DNA of 64,000 nt from the NCBI RefSeq assembly GCF_002078605.1, contig NZ_MSJR01000008.1, positions 62,001-126,000 on the forward strand. Direction: 5' to 3'. Source of the stretch: Salegentibacter sediminis. Lineage in GTDB: Bacteria > Bacteroidota > Bacteroidia > Flavobacteriales > Flavobacteriaceae. How positions within the stretch are numbered: the stretch's first letter is position 1; each line of letters opens with the position of its first letter. Made by a program: the position numbers and the translations under genes. The notes under the pieces are model-generated. The model was not told the origin of the DNA, did no database searches, and worked only from the letters and a program-made list of their open reading frames with translations. Of the stretch, positions 16,941 through 63,312 are shown piece after piece.

Positions 16941-17046
16941 TTGTTATCTATCTGTGCTTATGCAAAGTAGAAGGTAGCACCTTCTCCCATTACAGGAGGG
17001 TTGCTAAGGTTTCATCGGGTCTATTCCCTCAACCTTTCTTGATAAC
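16941..17046 (-). ncRNA. SAM-I (S-box) riboswitch
   Basis: The minus strand shows the S-box core in order: P1 5' strand GTTATC (17046-17041), AAGAAAGGTTGAGGGA, CCCGATGAAACCT, AGCAACC, then AAGGTGCTACCTTC and the closing GATAAC (16948-16943), which pairs perfectly with the P1 5' strand. These match the conserved kink-turn and SAM-binding segments of the SAM-I class. It precedes metH1-metH2-metF. A classical terminator before metH1 is not obvious, so the output may be translational or use a weak hairpin. Confidence 0.93.
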
Positions 17047-17124
17047 GATGTAAATTAATGAACTTGGACCGCCAAATATCGGTCATACTTAATCCAATTC
17101 CAAAGAATTGAAATCTTTTTATGT

Positions 17125-18981: not shown

Positions 18982-20148
18982 TCATTCAATACTATTTAAA
19001 GCCTGTTTTAAATCGGCAATCACATCATTTGGATGTTCCAATCCAACCGAAATTCGCACCAGCCCAACCGAAATCCCTGCTTCCAGCCTCTCTTCCTCAC
19101 TTAGTTTACTATGGGTAGTGGAAGCCGGATGGGTCACGATACTGCGGGTATCTCCTAAATTGGCCGACCTCGAACAAAGTTTAATGGCATTGATAAATTT
19201 TCGTCCTGCCTCCAGACCGCCTTTTATTTCGAAAGAAATAATATTTCCACCGGCTTTCATCTGCTTTTTTGCGATTTGATACTGGGGATGGGATTTTAAA
19301 AAGGGGTATTTCACCTTTTCAGCATTGGCTTGCTTTTCTAAAAATTCTGCAAGCTTTAGGGCGTTTTTACAGTGCCTGTCCAAACGTACGGGCAGCGTCT
19401 CTAAACTTTTAGACAATACCCAGGCATTAAACGGGGACAAAGCCGGCCCGGTATTTCTTGAAAACAGATAGATATCCCTTACCAAATCGGCATTTCCTAC
19501 TGTAACTCCTCCCAAAACACGCCCCTGCCCGTCGATGAGTTTGGTAGCTGAATGAATAACGAGATGCGCCCCGAATTTTATAGGATTTTGTAAATATGGA
19601 GTTGCGAAACAATTATCGATTATTAGAATAAGATCGTGTTTTTTAGCAATTTGCCCTAACAATTCCAGGTCCAGGATATCTACCCCGGGATTAGTGGGGC
19701 TTTCCGCAAAAATAATCTTCGTCTCGGGCCGGATAAGGCTTTCAAGCTTTTCGACTTCGTTCACCTTAAAATAGCTGTGCGAGATATTCCACTTCGGAAA
19801 AAATTTGGTAAACAAACTATGCGTTGAACCAAAAACCGCCCTGGACGAAATTATGTGATTTCCACTGTTCAACAAGGCTGCCAGGCTTGAAAAAACTGCA
19901 CTCATTCCTGTAGCAAAGGCAAATCCCGCTTCTGCCCCTTCCATCCTGGTGATTTTCTCAACAAATTCTGAAGTATTGGGATTGGTAAAACGACTGTAAA
20001 TATTGCGTTCTTTTTCCTCAGCAAAAGAAGCCCGCATATCTTCAGCGTCTTCAAAAACATAACTCGATGTGAGGTATAGCGGCGTAGAATGTTCCTGAAA
20101 CTGTGTTCTCTCGGTTTGGGTTCTTATGGCTTCGGTTTCAAAATGCAT
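18982..20148 (-). CDS. metZ: O-succinyl/O-acetylhomoserine sulfhydrylase, MetZ-like
   Basis: 388 residues, Cys/Met metabolism PLP family. PLP-lysine motif HSATKLIDGQGR, YSRFTNPN near the N-terminus and HPASTTHSKL near the C-terminus. The sequence is closer in motif detail to MetZ than to cystathionine beta-lyases, but the family is hard to separate by eye. It would make homocysteine from an acylated homoserine and sulfide. A second family member, metY, is in the same operon. It follows hom by 20 bases. Confidence 0.82.
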   Translation of the reverse strand: MHFETEAIRTQTERTQFQEHSTPLYLTSSYVFEDAEDMRASFAEEKERNIYSRFTNPNTSEFVEKITRMEGAEAGFAFATGMSAVFSSLAALLNSGNHIISSRAVFGSTHSLFTKFFPKWNISHSYFKVNEVEKLESLIRPETKIIFAESPTNPGVDILDLELLGQIAKKHDLILIIDNCFATPYLQNPIKFGAHLVIHSATKLIDGQGRVLGGVTVGNADLVRDIYLFSRNTGPALSPFNAWVLSKSLETLPVRLDRHCKNALKLAEFLEKQANAEKVKYPFLKSHPQYQIAKKQMKAGGNIISFEIKGGLEAGRKFINAIKLCSRSANLGDTRSIVTHPASTTHSKLSEEERLEAGISVGLVRISVGLEHPNDVIADLKQALNSIE

Positions 20149-20168: not shown

Positions 20169-21242
20169 TCAATTGAGTCTATTAGACAATTTCAACACAT
20201 CACTCACCACACCGCGAGCAGTCACCGCAGCACCGGCACCGGCTCCCTGAATCACCATGGGTTGTTCGGCGTAGGATTCAGTATAGATTTCGAAAATATT
20301 ATCGGCACCCTTGATCTGGCCGAGCGCGGTTTGTCTTGGTTCTGAAATCAGCCGGGCTTCCAGGCTTGCTTTTCCTACCTTTATTTCTCCTACATAGCGT
20401 AAAACGTGATCGGTCTGCTGTTCTTTTTTGTGCTTTTCAAAGATTTCATCCAGTTCTGAAATCCTTTTCTGAAAATCTTCTGTGGAAGTTTTTCCGTTTA
20501 ATTTTTCAGGAATAAGCGACTGGATCTTCACTTCTTTAAACTCCTTCTTCAGCTGAAGTTCACGCGCCAGGATCAGTAATTTTCGCCCCACATCATTTCC
20601 CGAAAGATCTTCGCGGGCATCGGGTTCAGTATAACCAAGCTTACCGGCTTGCTGCAGAACCTCAGAAAATTCGGCATCACTTTCAGAAAAAGTATTGAAG
20701 ATAAAGCTCAGTGAGCCCGAAAAAACCCCGCGAATGCGGGTCACTTTTTCCCCGGCCCGGTGCAACTCCTGTAGGGTTTGGACAATAGGCAGGCCCGCAC
20801 CAACATTAGTCTCGTAATAGAAATGTTTTTTGTGTTTTTGGAGTTCTCTTCTCAATCCATAATAAAATTCACCGGAAAGTGTATTGGCTATCTTGTTCGC
20901 TGCCACTAAATGAAAACCCTTCTTCACCAGTTCCGGGTAGTGCAACACCAGCTCCTTGCTGGCTGTGGCATCAATAACCACAGGATTTTCAAGTTGATGT
21001 TCCCGGTTAAACTCCAATATAGATTCCAATTGATAGGATACAGCACTATACTGAAAATCCTTCTCCCAGTTCTCGCCGATCCCTTCAGGCTTAAAAATGG
21101 CTTTTTCCGAATTGGCAATCACCGGGATCTTAAGGCTAATTTCAAATTCCTCTACCCAGCGGGACCTTATTTTTAAAAATTGGTCTATAAGCCTATTACC
21201 TACATTACCTACTCCAAATAAGATGATGTTCACTTCTTTCAT
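20169..21242 (-). CDS. hom: Homoserine dehydrogenase, stand-alone
   Basis: 357 residues from ATG 21242; a TTG two codons earlier is less likely. Rossmann motif FGVGNVGNRL, catalytic-region VAANKIANTLSG, GVFSGSLSFIFN and YTEPDAREDLSGNDVGRK. The C-terminus IQGAGAGAAVTARGV matches the homoserine dehydrogenase half of ThrA/MetL fusions, but there is no aspartokinase domain. It supplies homoserine to MetX, whose gene overlaps it by 38 bases upstream. Confidence 0.92.
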   Translation of the reverse strand: MKEVNIILFGVGNVGNRLIDQFLKIRSRWVEEFEISLKIPVIANSEKAIFKPEGIGENWEKDFQYSAVSYQLESILEFNREHQLENPVVIDATASKELVLHYPELVKKGFHLVAANKIANTLSGEFYYGLRRELQKHKKHFYYETNVGAGLPIVQTLQELHRAGEKVTRIRGVFSGSLSFIFNTFSESDAEFSEVLQQAGKLGYTEPDAREDLSGNDVGRKLLILARELQLKKEFKEVKIQSLIPEKLNGKTSTEDFQKRISELDEIFEKHKKEQQTDHVLRYVGEIKVGKASLEARLISEPRQTALGQIKGADNIFEIYTESYAEQPMVIQGAGAGAAVTARGVVSDVLKLSNRLN

Positions 21243-22218
21243 TTTCAATTTTGTTGGTTTTAAAAACAGGTTTTAAAAATCGGACGAGCTGAGAGGCTTC
21301 AATAAGGAAAGCGTCATGTCCATGAATAGATTTAATCTCGTTAATACTCACGTTGGGTTTGGCCAGCGAAAGGTCTACATAGGTTTCCCAGTTTTCATCG
21401 GCCAGGAAAAACCAGTCTGAATTCACGGTTATAATGTGAATATGGCCCTTAATTTTTTTGGCAGCAGCCAGGTAATTTCCGCTACCGTTGCTAATATCTA
21501 TGGTAGTAAGCAGGTGATTCATCAATTTGTAGGAAGCCAACTGAAAGCGTTCCTCCAGCTTATCGCCGTGATATTGCAACCAGCCTTCCACCTTGTAGCA
21601 GGCTTGCACTTCTTCCCGCGAGCGGTTAAATTTTCTGGCGAGCGATTGCGGGGTTCGGTAAAAGGTCATCGCGTGCATGCGGGCATCTTTTACAGGGCTG
21701 GCCGAATTGTTTAAGATCTGAGCCTGTACCTTGCAGTTTGCCAGCACCCAGTCGGTCGCTTTATAATCGGTTGCTATTGGAATGATGTTTTCGGCAAGCT
21801 CCGGTAGTAAAGCCGCCAACTCCCATGCAAGTGCTCCTCCAATAGACCCGCCTATTATGGCAAAAAGTTTATTGATTTCCAGCTTTTTCAGGGCGAGAGC
21901 CTGTATGCGGGCTATATCTTTTAAGCTGAAATCTTTATAATTCTCTATTAAGTCCTCTTTTTTCCCGTTGAAACCATTTCCCGGGGTATTGAAAGCCAAC
22001 ACTGCATACTGATTGGTATCTATAGTTTTTCCCGCACCTACGATCCCACTCCACCAGCCATTTTCCCCGGTGATCTGGGAATTTCCGGTTAGGGCGTGAT
22101 TCACCAGCACTATCGGGGCCAATTCAACAGGCTGCCCGAAATGCTGAAAACTAAGATGAATATCCTGGATCCCACCGGAAGAATTTTTAAAGTTCTCTAT
22201 ACAAATCTCCTGAAGCAT
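21205..22218 (-). CDS. metX: Homoserine O-acetyltransferase
   Basis: 337 residues from ATG 22218 (MLQEICIENF); a longer frame to 22287 starts with TTG and adds unconserved residues. Alpha/beta-hydrolase fold with the nucleophile elbow GGSIGGALAW, oxyanion-region NHALTGNSQ, and a C-terminal HGHDAFLIE His. It acylates homoserine; this family includes both acetyl and succinyl users, and acetyl is the default guess. The 3' end overlaps hom by 38 bases; 80 bases below metY. Confidence 0.9.
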   Translation of the reverse strand: MLQEICIENFKNSSGGIQDIHLSFQHFGQPVELAPIVLVNHALTGNSQITGENGWWSGIVGAGKTIDTNQYAVLAFNTPGNGFNGKKEDLIENYKDFSLKDIARIQALALKKLEINKLFAIIGGSIGGALAWELAALLPELAENIIPIATDYKATDWVLANCKVQAQILNNSASPVKDARMHAMTFYRTPQSLARKFNRSREEVQACYKVEGWLQYHGDKLEERFQLASYKLMNHLLTTIDISNGSGNYLAAAKKIKGHIHIITVNSDWFFLADENWETYVDLSLAKPNVSINEIKSIHGHDAFLIEASQLVRFLKPVFKTNKIENERSEHHLIWSR

Positions 22219-22298
22219 ATTTTCTTTTTTTTCGAAAGGCGGTGAGGGAAAAGTCTTAACCTGGATGCTTTTCCCCGCGCCTTCCAACCAACAAATGA

Positions 22299-23591
22299 TT
22301 ATACCAATGCTTTTTTTCCGATTGCGGAAAATGCTTCTTTTAGATCGTTTTTCAGGTCTTCCACATCTTCCAATCCAACTGAAAGCCTTATGAGGTCTTG
22401 AGTAACCCCCGTGGTCGCCTGTTGTTCTTCGCTAAGTTGTTGATGAGTGGTACTGGCCGGATGGATGATAAGAGATTTCGTATCACCAATATTGGCCAGG
22501 AGGGAGAAAAGTTTGGTCTCATCGGCCACCACTCTGGCCGATTCGAAGCCGCCTTCAACCCCAAAGGTTACTACTCCACTTTGCCCCTTCGGAAGATATT
22601 TCTGGGCAAGCTTATAATATTTACTGCTTTCCAATCCCGGGTAGTTCACCCATTTTACTTCCGGTTGTTCCTGAAGCCATTTAGCAAGTTCCAGGGCATT
22701 TTCACTATGCTGTTTGATACGTATCTCCAAAGTTTCCAGACCCTGGATGATCTGAAAAGCATTAAACGGACTCAAGGCCGCCCCGTGATCTCTCAATCCT
22801 TCAATTCGCACCTTGGCGATAAAAGCAGCTTCCTTTAAAGCTTCGTGATAAACCAGGCCATGATAGCCGGGAGAAGGCTCGGTAAATTCAGGGAACTTTC
22901 CGTTGGCCCAGTCGAATTTCCCGGCATCGATTATCGCCCCGCCCAAAGCAGTTCCATTTCCATTGATATATTTCGTAAGAGATTCGATTACAATATCAGC
23001 GCCGTGCTCTATGGGTTTCAACAGGGATGGAGTTGCTACGGTATTATCCACAATTAAAGGCACTTTAAATTCTTTGGCTTCCGCAGAGATACCTTCAAGA
23101 TCAAGCACATCCAGCTTCGGATTACCCAGGGATTCTACAAAGAAGACCCGGGTATTCTCCCTGGCCGCTTTGGCAAAGTTTTCAGGATTCCCAGGTTCCA
23201 CAAAAGTGGTGGTAATTCCAAGACGGGGAAGGGTTACATTTAGCAAGTTATAGGTGCCACCATACAAACTATTGGAAGCCACAATATGATCTCCGGCCTT
23301 AAGCAGCGTTAGCAAGGTGGTATTTATCGCCGCGGTACCCGAGGCGGTAACCACCGCCGCGATGCCCCCTTCCAGGGCAGCAAGACGTTGTTCCAGAATA
23401 TCGTTGGTGGGATTGTTAATTCGGGTGTAAATAAATCCAGGCTCTGCCAGAGAAAAAAGATCGGCAGCGTGCTGGGAATCCTTAAATACGTAAGAAGTAG
23501 ATTGATATAGTGGCACTGCCCTGGTTCCGCCGTTGGCTGTTACATCGTGCCCGGCATGAAGAGCGTTGGTTGAAAATTTTTGAGTACTCAT
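22299..23591 (-). CDS. metY: O-acetylhomoserine aminocarboxypropyltransferase
   Basis: 430 residues, the length expected for MetY. YTRINNPTNDILEQR, PLP-lysine motif ESLTKYINGNGTALGG and HPASTTHQQLSEE. It makes homocysteine (from sulfide) or methionine (from methanethiol) using O-acetylhomoserine. First structural gene of metY-metX-hom-metZ. The transcript begins some 480 bases upstream and must cross two leader-peptide attenuators. Confidence 0.92.
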   Translation of the reverse strand: MSTQKFSTNALHAGHDVTANGGTRAVPLYQSTSYVFKDSQHAADLFSLAEPGFIYTRINNPTNDILEQRLAALEGGIAAVVTASGTAAINTTLLTLLKAGDHIVASNSLYGGTYNLLNVTLPRLGITTTFVEPGNPENFAKAARENTRVFFVESLGNPKLDVLDLEGISAEAKEFKVPLIVDNTVATPSLLKPIEHGADIVIESLTKYINGNGTALGGAIIDAGKFDWANGKFPEFTEPSPGYHGLVYHEALKEAAFIAKVRIEGLRDHGAALSPFNAFQIIQGLETLEIRIKQHSENALELAKWLQEQPEVKWVNYPGLESSKYYKLAQKYLPKGQSGVVTFGVEGGFESARVVADETKLFSLLANIGDTKSLIIHPASTTHQQLSEEQQATTGVTQDLIRLSVGLEDVEDLKNDLKEAFSAIGKKALV

Positions 23592-23661: not shown

Positions 23662-23701
23662 AAAAAAAGTCCCCCTGGATTCGCTATTACCAGGGGGACT
23701 T
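23662..23701 (-). terminator. Attenuator terminator 2 of the metY operon
   Basis: On the minus strand AAGTCCCCCTGG (23701-23690) pairs perfectly with CCAGGGGGACTT (23678-23667), 11-base loop, followed by a 7-T run (23668-23662). It lies 71 bases before metY. The top of its 5' arm and loop, CTGGTAATAGCG (23693-23682), can instead pair with TGCTATTGCCAG inside leader peptide 2 (23749-23738), a 12-pair antiterminator with two G-U pairs. Confidence 0.93.
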
Positions 23702-23725
23702 GAATTGAACTCTAAACAAACTAAG

Positions 23726-23824
23726 TTACATTCGATTCTGGCAATAGCATTTCATGCGCATAGACATACACATCATCATAATGTTCATCATCATATTTTT
23801 TGCTTTTGACAGATTATTACTCAT
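23726..23824 (-). CDS. Methionine leader peptide 2
   Basis: 32 codons from ATG 23824 to TAA 23726. Eleven Met codons, nine of them within residues 11-24 (MMMNIMMMCMSMRM), plus three Cys codons (residues 19, 26, 28). The frame can be extended upstream to 23926, but that part runs through a palindrome and lacks Met enrichment. Immediately after the Met run, the codons for C-Y-C-Q form the antiterminator strand. Stalling at Met codons would free it and prevent terminator 2. Confidence 0.88.
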   Translation of the reverse strand: MSNNLSKAKNMMMNIMMMCMSMRMKCYCQNRM

Positions 23825-23840
23825 AATTAATTCTTTTGTC

Positions 23841-23873
23841 TTTCCCGTCCCGATAGCTATCGGGAGCGGGAAA
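23841..23873. repeat. Long imperfect palindrome upstream of Met leader 2
   Basis: Plus strand TTTCCCG, T, CCCGATAGCTATCGGG, AG, CGGGAAA: a 16-bp perfect palindrome nested in a 7-bp outer stem, 17 bases before the leader 2 ATG. No T run follows on either strand, so it is not an obvious terminator. The core resembles the stem of the pheA attenuator (TCCCGAT...ATCGGGA). It may be a dispersed element or shield the leader start. Confidence 0.6.
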
Positions 23874-23900
23874 CTAATTTTATATTTTATTCCTTTAATA

Positions 23901-23924
23901 GATTTCCGTCTTCCAGGAAATGAC
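23901..23924. repeat. Short palindromic dispersed repeat, copy 2
   Basis: GATTTCCGTCTTCC followed by AGGAAATGAC. It has the same start (GATTTCCG) and end (GGAAATGAC) as the 48-base copy at 46340-46387. Located between attenuator terminator 1 and leader 2. Confidence 0.55.
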
Positions 23925-23935
23925 ACTTTTTAAAC

Positions 23936-23968
23936 AAAAAAAAAGCCGCTGCGGTGGCAGCGGCTTTT
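23936..23968 (-). terminator. Attenuator terminator 1 of the metY operon
   Basis: On the minus strand AAAAGCCGCTGC (23968-23957) pairs with GCAGCGGCTTTT (23952-23941), GGTG-complement tetraloop, then a 9-T run (23944-23936). It follows leader peptide 1 by 18 bases. CGCTGC of its 5' arm can pair with GCAGCG in the leader (24007-24002), only 6 bp. Confidence 0.9.
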
Positions 23969-23986
23969 GCAAATATCTTTTCAGTT

Positions 23987-24058
23987 TTATGCAATAATAC
24001 GCGCTGCGGAGGCTTTCCACATCATCTTACGCATCATATTGCAAATAAACTTGTACAT
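23987..24058 (-). CDS. Methionine leader peptide 1
   Basis: 23 codons, ATG 24058 to TAA 23987. Five Met codons, four of them internal as two pairs (NMMRKMMW). It begins about 13 bases after the predicted transcription start and is followed by an intrinsic terminator, so it has the layout of a ribosome-mediated attenuator. Segment GCAGCG, for S-A-A right after the Met pairs, mimics the terminator 3' arm. Confidence 0.8.
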   Translation of the reverse strand: MYKFICNMMRKMMWKASAARIIA

Positions 24059-24077
24059 TTCGTTGTTTTGTTGGGTA

Positions 24078-24110
24078 CAAAGATAAGGGCGCATTTTTTT
24101 AATATCCAAA
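24078..24110 (-). promoter_or_regulatory. Promoter of the metY operon
   Basis: On the minus strand TTTG (24110-24107), 21 bases, then TATCTTTG (24085-24078): an exact match to the Bacteroidota TTTG-N19-21-TAnnTTTG promoter. It points into Met leader 1, and the start site should be near 24071. Confidence 0.75.
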
Positions 24111-24287: not shown

Positions 24288-24299
24288 TAATCGAATAAT

Positions 24300-24403
24300 T
24301 TAAAGGGAAGGATTTGACTGATTGCAACCCTATATACACTAAAGTGTATTGAAAAATGCTAAAGCAGTAATACTACTCCTGTTAGCCTCGCACGTCAAAA
24401 TCC
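24300..24403 (+). ncRNA. SAM-II-like riboswitch upstream of metK
   Basis: The element has the SAM-II order: a stem AGGG...CCCT, the loop GGATTTGACTGATTGCA (24310-24326), and the 3' strand AAAAATGCTAAAGCAGT (24352-24368). ACTG in the loop (24317-24320) can pair with CAGT after GCTAAAG (24365-24368), the expected pseudoknot. An extra hairpin ATACACT/AGTGTAT is inserted between the stem and the 3' strand. GGATTTGAC can alternatively pair with GTCAAAATCC (24394-24403), which would give an expression platform. The P1 stem is imperfect, so SAM-II versus a relative is not certain. Confidence 0.68.
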
Positions 24404-62015: not shown

Positions 62016-62309
62016 ATGAAACGACCAATTTTATTACTGGCAATGATATTTACATTATCCACCGCTTTAACTTCCTGTAGAGAAGTTAAGGAAGAGGAGA
62101 ACGAAATGGAAATGCAAAGCGATGATATGGATGACATGGACGACATGGACGATATGAATGATGACCTTGATGATGTAGGAAATGATATCGAGGAAGCCGC
62201 CGATGATACCGGTGATGCGATTGAAAATGCCGCAGACGAAACTGGGGAAGCCATAGATGAAGGTGCTCAGGAAGTAGAAGATGAGCTAGAAGATAACGAC
62301 GACCTTTAA
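62016..62309 (+). CDS. Small acidic lipoprotein, paralogue 2, with 11-residue repeats
   Basis: 97 residues; lipobox ending LTSC (Cys21), followed by REV. The mature chain is extremely acidic: four DDM-type repeats, then an 11-residue periodicity AADDTGDAIEN / AADETGEAIDE / GAQEVEDELED, reminiscent of LEA-like amphipathic helices. TAATTTTG (61976-61983) is an exact -7 box about 33 bases upstream. Function unknown. Confidence 0.75.
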   Translation: MKRPILLLAMIFTLSTALTSCREVKEEENEMEMQSDDMDDMDDMDDMNDDLDDVGNDIEEAADDTGDAIENAADETGEAIDEGAQEVEDELEDNDDL

Positions 62310-62331
62310 TATATTTTCCAATTATTAAAGT

Positions 62332-62487
62332 ATGAAAAAGTTAGTTTTAATACTCGCATTGACCTTTAGCAGTGCCGCTGTTTTTACATCCTGCAGGGAT
62401 GAACGCTCAGGTGTTGAAAAAGCTGCAGACGATATTGAAGATGCAGCAGATGATGTAGGTGATGCCGTAGAAGATGCTACTGATTAG
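62332..62487 (+). CDS. Small acidic lipoprotein, paralogue 3
   Basis: 51 residues, ATG 62332 to TAG 62487; too short for most callers. Lipobox ending FTSC (Cys21), followed by RDE. The mature 30 residues repeat the 11-residue unit: AADDIED, AADDVGDAVED, ATD. It starts 22 bases after paralogue 2 and is followed by a terminator, so the two are co-transcribed. Confidence 0.75.
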   Translation: MKKLVLILALTFSSAAVFTSCRDERSGVEKAADDIEDAADDVGDAVEDATD

Positions 62488-62511
62488 TAACAAAATCTAT
62501 TAACTACTAAT

Positions 62512-62540
62512 AAAAAACCCTCCAACCCGGAGGGTTTTTT
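62512..62540. terminator. Intrinsic terminator, usable in both directions
   Basis: AAAAAACCCTCC (62512-62523), 5-base loop, GGAGGGTTTTTT (62529-62540). Lies between the lipoprotein cluster and the convergent XRE-S24 gene, whose stop overlaps it. Confidence 0.92.
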
Positions 62541-63312
62541 ATGCTTCCTTTTTAAAAGCTTTCAAATCTCTTTTTAATTCCTCCATAGATTCCTGAAGTT
62601 CCCGGAATAATCCGCTCTGCGAGGGATTATCCAGGTTAAAGGTCAATTTACTGTTAACCTGCCAAATCTCCTGGATATCATTTACATCAACCTCTATAGG
62701 CAAGTATTCTTCGTTGAAGGAAATAAGCAACACCTTGGAGGGATCAGGTAATTTCTGAAGTTTTTTTACAAGCACAGAATCATAAAGTACCACAACATAG
62801 ACCTTATTGTTAGAAGCCTGATCCAAATCGGCTACGGCCTTCCCCAATACCCATTCCCCTGGGTAATAGTTTGGAAGCATGCTGTCGCCCTCTATCTGAA
62901 AGCCACGATAGGTAGCATTTCGGAATTCAGGGAGAGGAATATCGAAAGCCGGGAGTTGGTGATACCATTCTACATCCTGAACATTATGCGGATAACCCGC
63001 CGCAGCTTTCTGATTAACCATTATAATATTCTCATTGTCAGCACTATCTACAGTCACCACTTTTGGACTCACATCCCCTTTGCTTAATTGCAAATATTTC
63101 TGCCCGCTTTCCCCAAATAACCAGAGCGGGTTAATTCCAAAGCGACTCAAAAGTCCGGCCACCACCTTACCCGATAATTTCGTTCGTCCTCGTTCAATAT
63201 CAGCAGTGGAATTCTTTATCCCCAGCAGTTCTGCAAATTCAGATTGAGTAAAATTATTTTCTTCTCTTACTTCTTTAAAGTGCTTGATCTCAATAGATGG
63301 TGGTGTTCCCAT
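62539..63312 (-). CDS. XRE-family regulator with S24 peptidase-like domain
   Basis: 257 residues. N-terminal helix-turn-helix (about 8-65, TQSEFAELLGIKNSTADIERGRTKLS), linker, then a LexA/CI-type S24 domain: possible cleavage site Ala105-Gly106 (QKAAAGYP), Ser144 in EGDSMLPNYYPGE and Lys183/184 in DSVLVKKLQ. The C-terminus is a Glu/Lys coiled-coil-like tail. Probably a self-cleaving or signal-responsive repressor; no phage genes surround it. Palindromes lie just upstream. Confidence 0.88.
   Translation of the reverse strand: MGTPPSIEIKHFKEVREENNFTQSEFAELLGIKNSTADIERGRTKLSGKVVAGLLSRFGINPLWLFGESGQKYLQLSKGDVSPKVVTVDSADNENIIMVNQKAAAGYPHNVQDVEWYHQLPAFDIPLPEFRNATYRGFQIEGDSMLPNYYPGEWVLGKAVADLDQASNNKVYVVVLYDSVLVKKLQKLPDPSKVLLISFNEEYLPIEVDVNDIQEIWQVNSKLTFNLDNPSQSGLFRELQESMEELKRDLKAFKKEA

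Follow-up and report, generated by a model that had tools for sequence, protein, structure and literature searches.

SAM riboswitches, T-boxes and repressors are the textbook regulators of methionine genes. Ribosome-mediated attenuators, as in the trp, his, thr, leu and phe operons, combine a short ORF rich in codons for the product of the operon, an antiterminator and a terminator that exclude each other, a protector helix and a stop codon that lies close to the antiterminator; Lopatovskaya et al. reportedly surveyed attenuation by comparative analysis in 2010. Cysteine-responsive polycysteine attenuators exist in mycobacteria. Within the family to which the present locus belongs, ‘strong clues’ of leader-peptide attenuation before amino-acid biosynthesis operons are described for Flavobacterium psychrophilum (PMC9723704); the main text of that paper does not contain the word methionine, and an overlap with the leaders described here is possible.

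The region upstream of metY in the 64-kb stretch of Salegentibacter sediminis analysed here (the window) shares the layout of the trp, his, thr, leu and phe leaders, with a protector helix predicted for module 1, and, unlike them, has Met (with Cys) codons, two modules in series and a host in the Bacteroidota. Compared by description, the mycobacterial attenuators likewise place the control of downstream genes in the sulphur amino-acid codons of a leader ORF, but use Cys only and belong to another phylum. The SAM-I riboswitch (S-box, RF00162), found at the same operon and position before metY and presumably acting there too, differs in sensing SAM directly by an aptamer, and is absent from 15/15 leader-bearing regions. 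Searches of the openly licensed literature turned up no Met-codon attenuator, nor leaders mixing Met with Cys codons, a serial pair of modules or an exchange with SAM-I; as subscription papers fall mostly outside that scope, an earlier description elsewhere is possible. The mechanism itself is of a known kind.

Organization of the metY leader region

The minus strand before and within the operon carries two modules, each a Met-rich leader ORF followed by a terminator, and then four genes:

24078..24110 (-): promoter, presumably of Bacteroidota type, with TTTG (-33 box) within 24101-24110 and -7 box TATCTTTG at 24085-24078
23987..24058 (-): leader peptide ORF 1, type 1, MYKFICNMMRKMMWKASAARIIA, 23 codons, 5 Met including the start
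23941..23968 (-): terminator 1, 12-bp perfect stem and 4-nt loop, the T tract continuing downstream (9 T after the last C, 4 within the stem)
23726..23824 (-): leader peptide ORF 2, type 2, MSNNLSKAKNMMMNIMMMCMSMRMKCYCQNRM, 32 codons, 11 Met including the start, 3 Cys
23667..23701 (-): terminator 2, 12-bp perfect stem and 11-nt loop, the T tract continuing downstream (7 T after the last C, 2 within the stem)
22299..23591 (-): metY, O-acetylhomoserine sulfhydrylase, first operon gene, ATG at 23591 (NCBIfam TIGR01326, 636 bits, cut-off 495.1)
21205..22230 (-): metX-like homoserine O-acetyltransferase, which probably starts within the listed ORF (MetX is the top NCBIfam match, with 186.5 bits against a cut-off of 331)
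20169..21248 (-): hom, homoserine-dehydrogenase-like (closest in NCBIfam to bifunctional enzymes, in their dehydrogenase part, with scores below the cut-offs)
18982..20148 (-): metZ-like enzyme of the O-succinylhomoserine sulfhydrylase family (top NCBIfam score 510.4 bits against a cut-off of 522)

The promoter, the two Met-rich leaders and the two 12-bp terminators that the initial annotation placed before metY are confirmed. Its naming of the operon as metY-metX-hom-metZ holds above cut-off for metY, which is 95% identical to S. flavus metY, while metX, hom and metZ are the best NCBIfam matches at scores below the cut-offs. The assignment of 24078..24110 as a Bacteroidota-type promoter follows the -33/-7 consensus of that phylum; TANNTTTG occurs near the first leader in 44/52 leader-bearing regions, against 7.2 expected from mononucleotide shuffles. 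A reading of the sequence between terminator 1 and leader 2 found no second TAnnTTTG box, so a single promoter probably drives both leaders. Since the longest reading of leader 1 begins at 24094, upstream of the -7 box, a start at 24058 is likely. Also between terminator 1 and leader 2 lies a palindrome, TTTCCCG..CCCGATAGCTATCGGG..CGGGAAA (window 23841-23873), and because its core has nine places in the genome, a repeat element seems to be lodged between the two modules.

With a Met-rich ORF defined by at least four internal Met within 12 codons, the 519 nt tested upstream of metY hold two such ORFs, both with a terminator. Among 3000 dinucleotide shuffles of the region, four gave at least one Met-rich ORF, none gave two and none gave an ORF with a terminator; on both strands of the whole window there is one additional Met-rich ORF, which has no terminator.

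Conservation of the leaders

Regions upstream of metY were drawn from 47 named Bacteroidota loci (among 80), 14 other genomes of the genus and a family draw of 199 genomes, in which metY was accepted at E <= 1e-150, giving 136 regions (135 loci and the window). L020, with just 167 bases upstream, was left out of the 47 Bacteroidota loci; five named loci share their 300-nt upstream sequence with another locus, and no such pair occurs inside the set of 149 (the window and 148 others) or that of 136. ORF scans, which are independent of the sequence models used below, found a short Met-rich ORF within 1 kb upstream of metY in 32/149 regions, 27 of which also have a terminator (27/149); on the reverse strand the counts are 2/149 and 0. 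Chance repetition of ATG is ruled out by the shuffles together with these reverse-strand counts. The tandem arrangement of Met-rich leader ORFs and terminators upstream of metY is real and is conserved beyond Salegentibacter.

The leaders form two classes, with leader 1 of the window belonging to type 1 and leader 2 to type 2. Type-1 leaders are mostly 22-24 codons long, with the pattern NMM..MMW..SAA..IA and a terminator AAAAGCCGCTGCC...GCAGCGGCTTTT, and type-2 leaders have about 30 codons, the pattern MMM..MMMCM...YCQ.R and a terminator AAGTCCCCTTGGTAATAGC.... The type-1 family comprises 47 distinct sequences, 40 of which are aligned in A1 (without L011, L012, L026, L094, L097, L099 and L219), and the type-2 family 40, with 35 aligned in A2 (without L012, L032, L094, L097 and L100). 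In Salegentibacter, Gillisia, Christiangramia, Salinimicrobium and Balneicella halophila, metY is preceded by a type-1 and then a type-2 leader. For the named Flavobacterium loci, L026 has type 1, L032 has type 2 and L037 matches both weakly (39.3 and 44.4 bits); L124, which has both types, groups with the Flavobacterium loci on the metY tree, and its genus, g127, is presumably Flavobacterium.

In two type-2 leaders (L019 and L021), sequence resembling dispersed repeats lengthens the longest reading at its upstream end, to 54 and 65 codons, respectively. Three Gillisia loci (L010 9729-10048, L011 5746-6063 and L012 9799-9922) hold a second copy before a second hom gene, of type 1 in all three and by model also of type 2 in two. 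The type-1 leader of this second copy has 2 internal Met, compared with 4-5 in the leader before metY in each of these genomes, and may be read as a shared scaffold on which the codons are eroding or have been re-tuned.

Antiterminators, protector and terminators

Each leader ends in codons that are complementary to the 5' side of the next terminator, and the following strands can be assigned in the window:

24030..24044 (-): module 1 strand 1 (protector), predicted to pair with strand 2 if the leader is untranslated (fold and swap test)
23990..24007 (-): module 1 strand 2, the antiterminator 5' strand, codons AARIIA (pair counts on A1, swap tests)
23957..23973 (-): module 1 strand 3, the antiterminator 3' strand, overlapping the 5' arm of terminator 1 (pair counts, swap test)
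23738..23748 (-): module 2 antiterminator 5' strand, GCTATTGCCAG (pair counts on A2, swap test)
23683..23693 (-): module 2 antiterminator 3' strand, CTGGTAATAGC, the end of the 5' arm of terminator 2 and its loop (pair counts on A2)

In type 1, GCAGCG of the SAA codons pairs with CGCTGC, and variants changed on both sides are present in relatives (GCAGAGG:CCTCTGC, GCAAGGG:CCCTTGC and CGCAAAGG:CCTTTGCG). On A1, 83.6% of the cells of this antiterminator are paired, compared with 33.2-46.8% in slid registers, and 17 cells have two-sided change; none of 500 shuffles reached the cells paired, the cells changed or the covariation score, with the pair-count and pair-type measures not above the shuffles (279/500 and 294/500). 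In type 2, the two antiterminator strands pair with each other, with variants GGTATTACC:GGTAATACC, TGTATTACC:GGTAATACA and others, and on A2 93.9% of the cells are paired (19.0-52.6% slid), with two-sided change in 6/11 pairs (16 cells) and 0/500 shuffles reaching the alignment on any of the five measures. Terminator 1 is paired in 97.1% of cells on A1, with two-sided change in five pairs; terminator 2 on A2 was left unused, its 3' arm being one column off in many rows (71.4% paired, and 86.0% when slid by -1).

Swap tests were run on 23 chosen type-1 and 19 chosen type-2 sequences, the latter reduced to 16 as L016, L201 and L233 have no unbroken terminator. Without correction for kinship, which none of the tests here includes, leaders paired better with their own terminators than with foreign ones on average in both type 1 (-13.14 against -10.28 kcal/mol, 0/20000) and type 2 (-14.06 against -11.52 kcal/mol, 1/20000). 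The own pair ranks first in 5/23 type-1 sequences and 18-21 of 23 in L188, L201 and L221, and in type 2 L010, L014, L022 and L043 (own pair 10-13 of 16) fare better with foreign terminators.

In type 1, strand 2 can also pair with the stretch that holds the early Met codons (in the window, TGCAATA:TATTGCA). In a swap test of this protector on 27 chosen type-1 sequences, own strands reached -12.25 kcal/mol and permuted ones -9.37 kcal/mol (sd 0.42, 0/20000), and the upper part of the antiterminator likewise favoured its own partner (39/20000). Module 1 is accordingly laid out, as judged by its predicted pairings, in the trp-type 1-2-3-4 order. The antiterminator of module 2 occupies just the inner 4 of the 12 terminator pairs and the loop, a partial exclusion, and the remaining 8 pairs of terminator 2 might still cause termination, perhaps as a pseudoknot.

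The proposal of ribosome-mediated Met attenuation made in the initial annotation, which looked to relatives for its confirmation, is supported by these alignments: Met codons, stop positions and terminators recur, and the helices show compensatory changes. To that proposal the present analysis adds the antiterminators, a 1:2 protector helix in module 1, the rule of a 12-nt spacing (below) and the presence of SAM-I at the same place in most relatives.

Ribosome position and proposed mechanism

In the stop-anchored register, the last Met codon lies exactly 12 nt from the antiterminator strand in 34/47 distinct type-1 leaders, and Met or Cys fills 255/372 codon places at -18 to -11 and 17/470 at -10 to -1. 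Among Met codons of type 2 that are at least 9 nt away, the nearest sits at 13 nt in 15/37 measurable leaders, though closer Met codons also occur, and in leader 2 of the window 2/10 internal Met codons lie less than 9 nt from, or beyond, the antiterminator strand. Relative to the stop codon, this strand starts mostly at -18 (type 1) and -20 (type 2). The ribosome footprint extends upstream of the translated codon, so a ribosome at the stop codon would mask the antiterminator strand. As the footprint reaches ~12 nt downstream of the translated codon (PMC4833913), a ribosome on the last Met codon of a type-1 leader would leave that strand free.

When folded with a ribosome on Met13 of leader 1 or Met20 of leader 2, the antiterminator is the minimum free energy structure before the 3' arm of the terminator is made (-16.8 and -25.3 kcal/mol, respectively). 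Once the 3' arm is complete, the terminator is more stable in every ribosome position folded in both modules. Because equilibrium thus favours the terminator, the switch would have to be kinetic, as it is in known attenuators.

Taken together, it is very probable that metY-metX-hom-metZ is controlled via charged Met-tRNA by a serial pair of ribosome-mediated transcription attenuators, with probably some input from Cys-tRNA. With ample Met, the ribosome would reach the leader stop codon and mask the 5' strand of the antiterminator, so that the terminator forms. With scarce Met, it would stall on the Met codons, the last of which lies about 12 nt before that strand, and the freed strand would pair with the 5' side of the terminator once this is transcribed, letting RNA polymerase read through. 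If the leader were untranslated, strand 1 of module 1 would sequester strand 2 and the terminator would form. RNA polymerase would reach metY solely by passing both modules. Translation of the leaders, termination in vivo, control by Met and the action of both modules on one transcript are inferred, and attenuators in series would be expected to multiply the regulatory range. Counting against the model, Met shortage should also reduce initiation at the leader and so favour termination; a Met-codon attenuator therefore poses a special problem, and its existence and doubling a real, testable question.

Sulphur amino-acid codons and the wider regulon

The sensing of Cys by the leaders, as suggested by their codons, is plausible, and in leader 2 Cys19 is the sole clean candidate for a sensor, since Cys26 and Cys28 overlap the antiterminator strand. 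In each type, Cys accounts for 11.0% of the residues in the approximate sensing part, and in the Flavobacterium-like genus g127 a type-1 element precedes a serine O-acetyltransferase gene in L259 (EpsC model above cut-off) and L260 (by likeness), the gene after it being read as cysK by eye. Such a placement would suit leaders that mainly sense cysteine or general sulphur supply through their Cys codons, with Met secondary, but this is very improbable given that Met is three times as frequent (34.1% in type 1 and 33.4% in type 2), that codon place -11 of type-1 leaders is Met in 40/47 and Cys in 3/47, and that leader 1 of the window has one Cys codon, seven codons before the last Met.

Attenuation governed mainly by Met remains the preferred reading, and the sites of the two leader types across the phylum were located with models R1 (type 1) and R2 (type 2). 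At E <= 1e-8 with strict filters, R1 was found in 20/395 and R2 in 17/395 phylum genomes, each in 3/171 genera. Every one of the 41 model matches in the phylum draw has metK, a metY-family gene, metX or hom no more than 1.5 kb away. Within the genome of the window, R1 matches strongly at the metY site alone (125.7 bits, the second best having 38.4), which is also the only match to R2 at E <= 1e-8. Other strong sites in the genome were rejected, and of seven weaker matches the one that was read, at window 62423-62548 (+), is an ordinary gene end with a terminator; window 62100-62310 (+) is a low-complexity gene end rich in Asp, Glu and Met codons.

Within g127, seven loci (L252, L253, L254, L257, L258, L261 and L262) have a type-1 element followed by a TonB-dependent-receptor-like gene, and L245 has one followed by a transsulfuration-like gene with an apparently interrupted frame. 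A family scan of the TonB-dependent-receptor-like gene in L253, the sole one scanned, gave no match above cut-off. The position of the type-1 element by such a gene, near metK, possibly reflects methionine-linked uptake across the outer membrane. In L038 (1376-1493), a type-1 element likewise stands before a TonB-dependent-receptor-like gene.

Leaders and SAM-I riboswitches at metY

A known riboswitch or T-box at the window leaders is rejected, as covariance-model searches found neither SAM-I (RF00162) nor T-box there: SAM and T-box families were absent both at gathering thresholds and among the 30 matches with E no higher than 10. Against leader 1, the Rfam models of the Phe, Thr and Trp leaders scored 25.8, 16.2 and 14.8 bits (gathering 55, 55 and 41), and these weak matches were left out of the evidence. 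Most relatives have a SAM-I riboswitch in the place of the leaders, as would be fitting if the locus held an undescribed SAM or methionine riboswitch, or a T-box, with the Met-rich ORFs incidental. Such an element is likewise very improbable, as no SAM or T-box family is among those matches, the conserved parts are in-frame ATG codons and helices overlapping the last codons and the terminator with no aptamer-like block, and the internal gap runs before the stop in A1 are all multiples of three, bar one column made by L039. It is also very improbable that the ORFs are functional small proteins rich in Met and Cys (e.g., metal-binding, as peptides of this kind can be) or trans-acting short RNAs with the terminators as gene ends, since their lengths and most residues are variable and the constant C-terminal residues are those encoded by the antiterminator codons, which change in step with the terminator. 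Functions in trans are known for some leader peptides and leader RNAs, for example peTrpL (PMC7298713).

Turning from these alternatives to attenuation and its distribution, SAM-I is present in 100/136 family metY regions, on the same strand and with its end 84-281 nt from metY. Fifteen regions have type 1, 12 have type 2 and 12 have both types, with 21 regions having neither leader nor SAM-I; the leader matches here arise in part by construction, since many of the sequences searched had also gone into R1 and R2. SAM-I and a leader were found together upstream of metY in 0/136 family regions, compared with an expected overlap of 11.0 (P = 1.6e-10, kinship uncorrected). The R2 match of L191 and the second ones of L106, L221 and L232 were excluded as type-1 places, and L104, L202 and L230 are among the regions cut by contig ends. 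A metY tree was built from 66 chosen proteins (L067 was dropped as incomplete). At least six changes are required on it to account for the labels leader and SAM-I, and well supported (starred) branches force at least three changes for each label; the tree is a quick one with many open forks and does not distinguish gain from loss.

On balance, the evidence leans towards a class of Met-codon attenuator in which two separable modules in series would read the charging of Met and Cys tRNAs, and which would serve as an alternative to SAM-I at the met locus of the Flavobacteriaceae, the two having repeatedly replaced each other. As part of the same reading, the type-1 module would also govern a serine O-acetyltransferase operon, hom/metX and a TonB-dependent-receptor-like gene in Flavobacterium-like genomes, and the signal of one operon would have been switched from SAM to aminoacyl-tRNA. 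An exchange of riboswitch and leader at an orthologous place allows the sensing of SAM and of charged tRNA to be compared for the same operon, and the Bacteroidota gain a well sampled family of leader attenuators.

SAM-I was also seen downstream of metY in L106 (2965-3070) and L124 (3888-3995), which are omitted from the SAM-I counts; as metY itself has Met leaders in these loci, neighbouring genes there appear to be under both kinds of control. In the window, a SAM-II riboswitch precedes the divergent metK (24298-24372, +) and a SAM-I riboswitch precedes metH (16941-17048, -), which with the Met leaders places three kinds of methionine/SAM sensing elements in about 7.5 kb.
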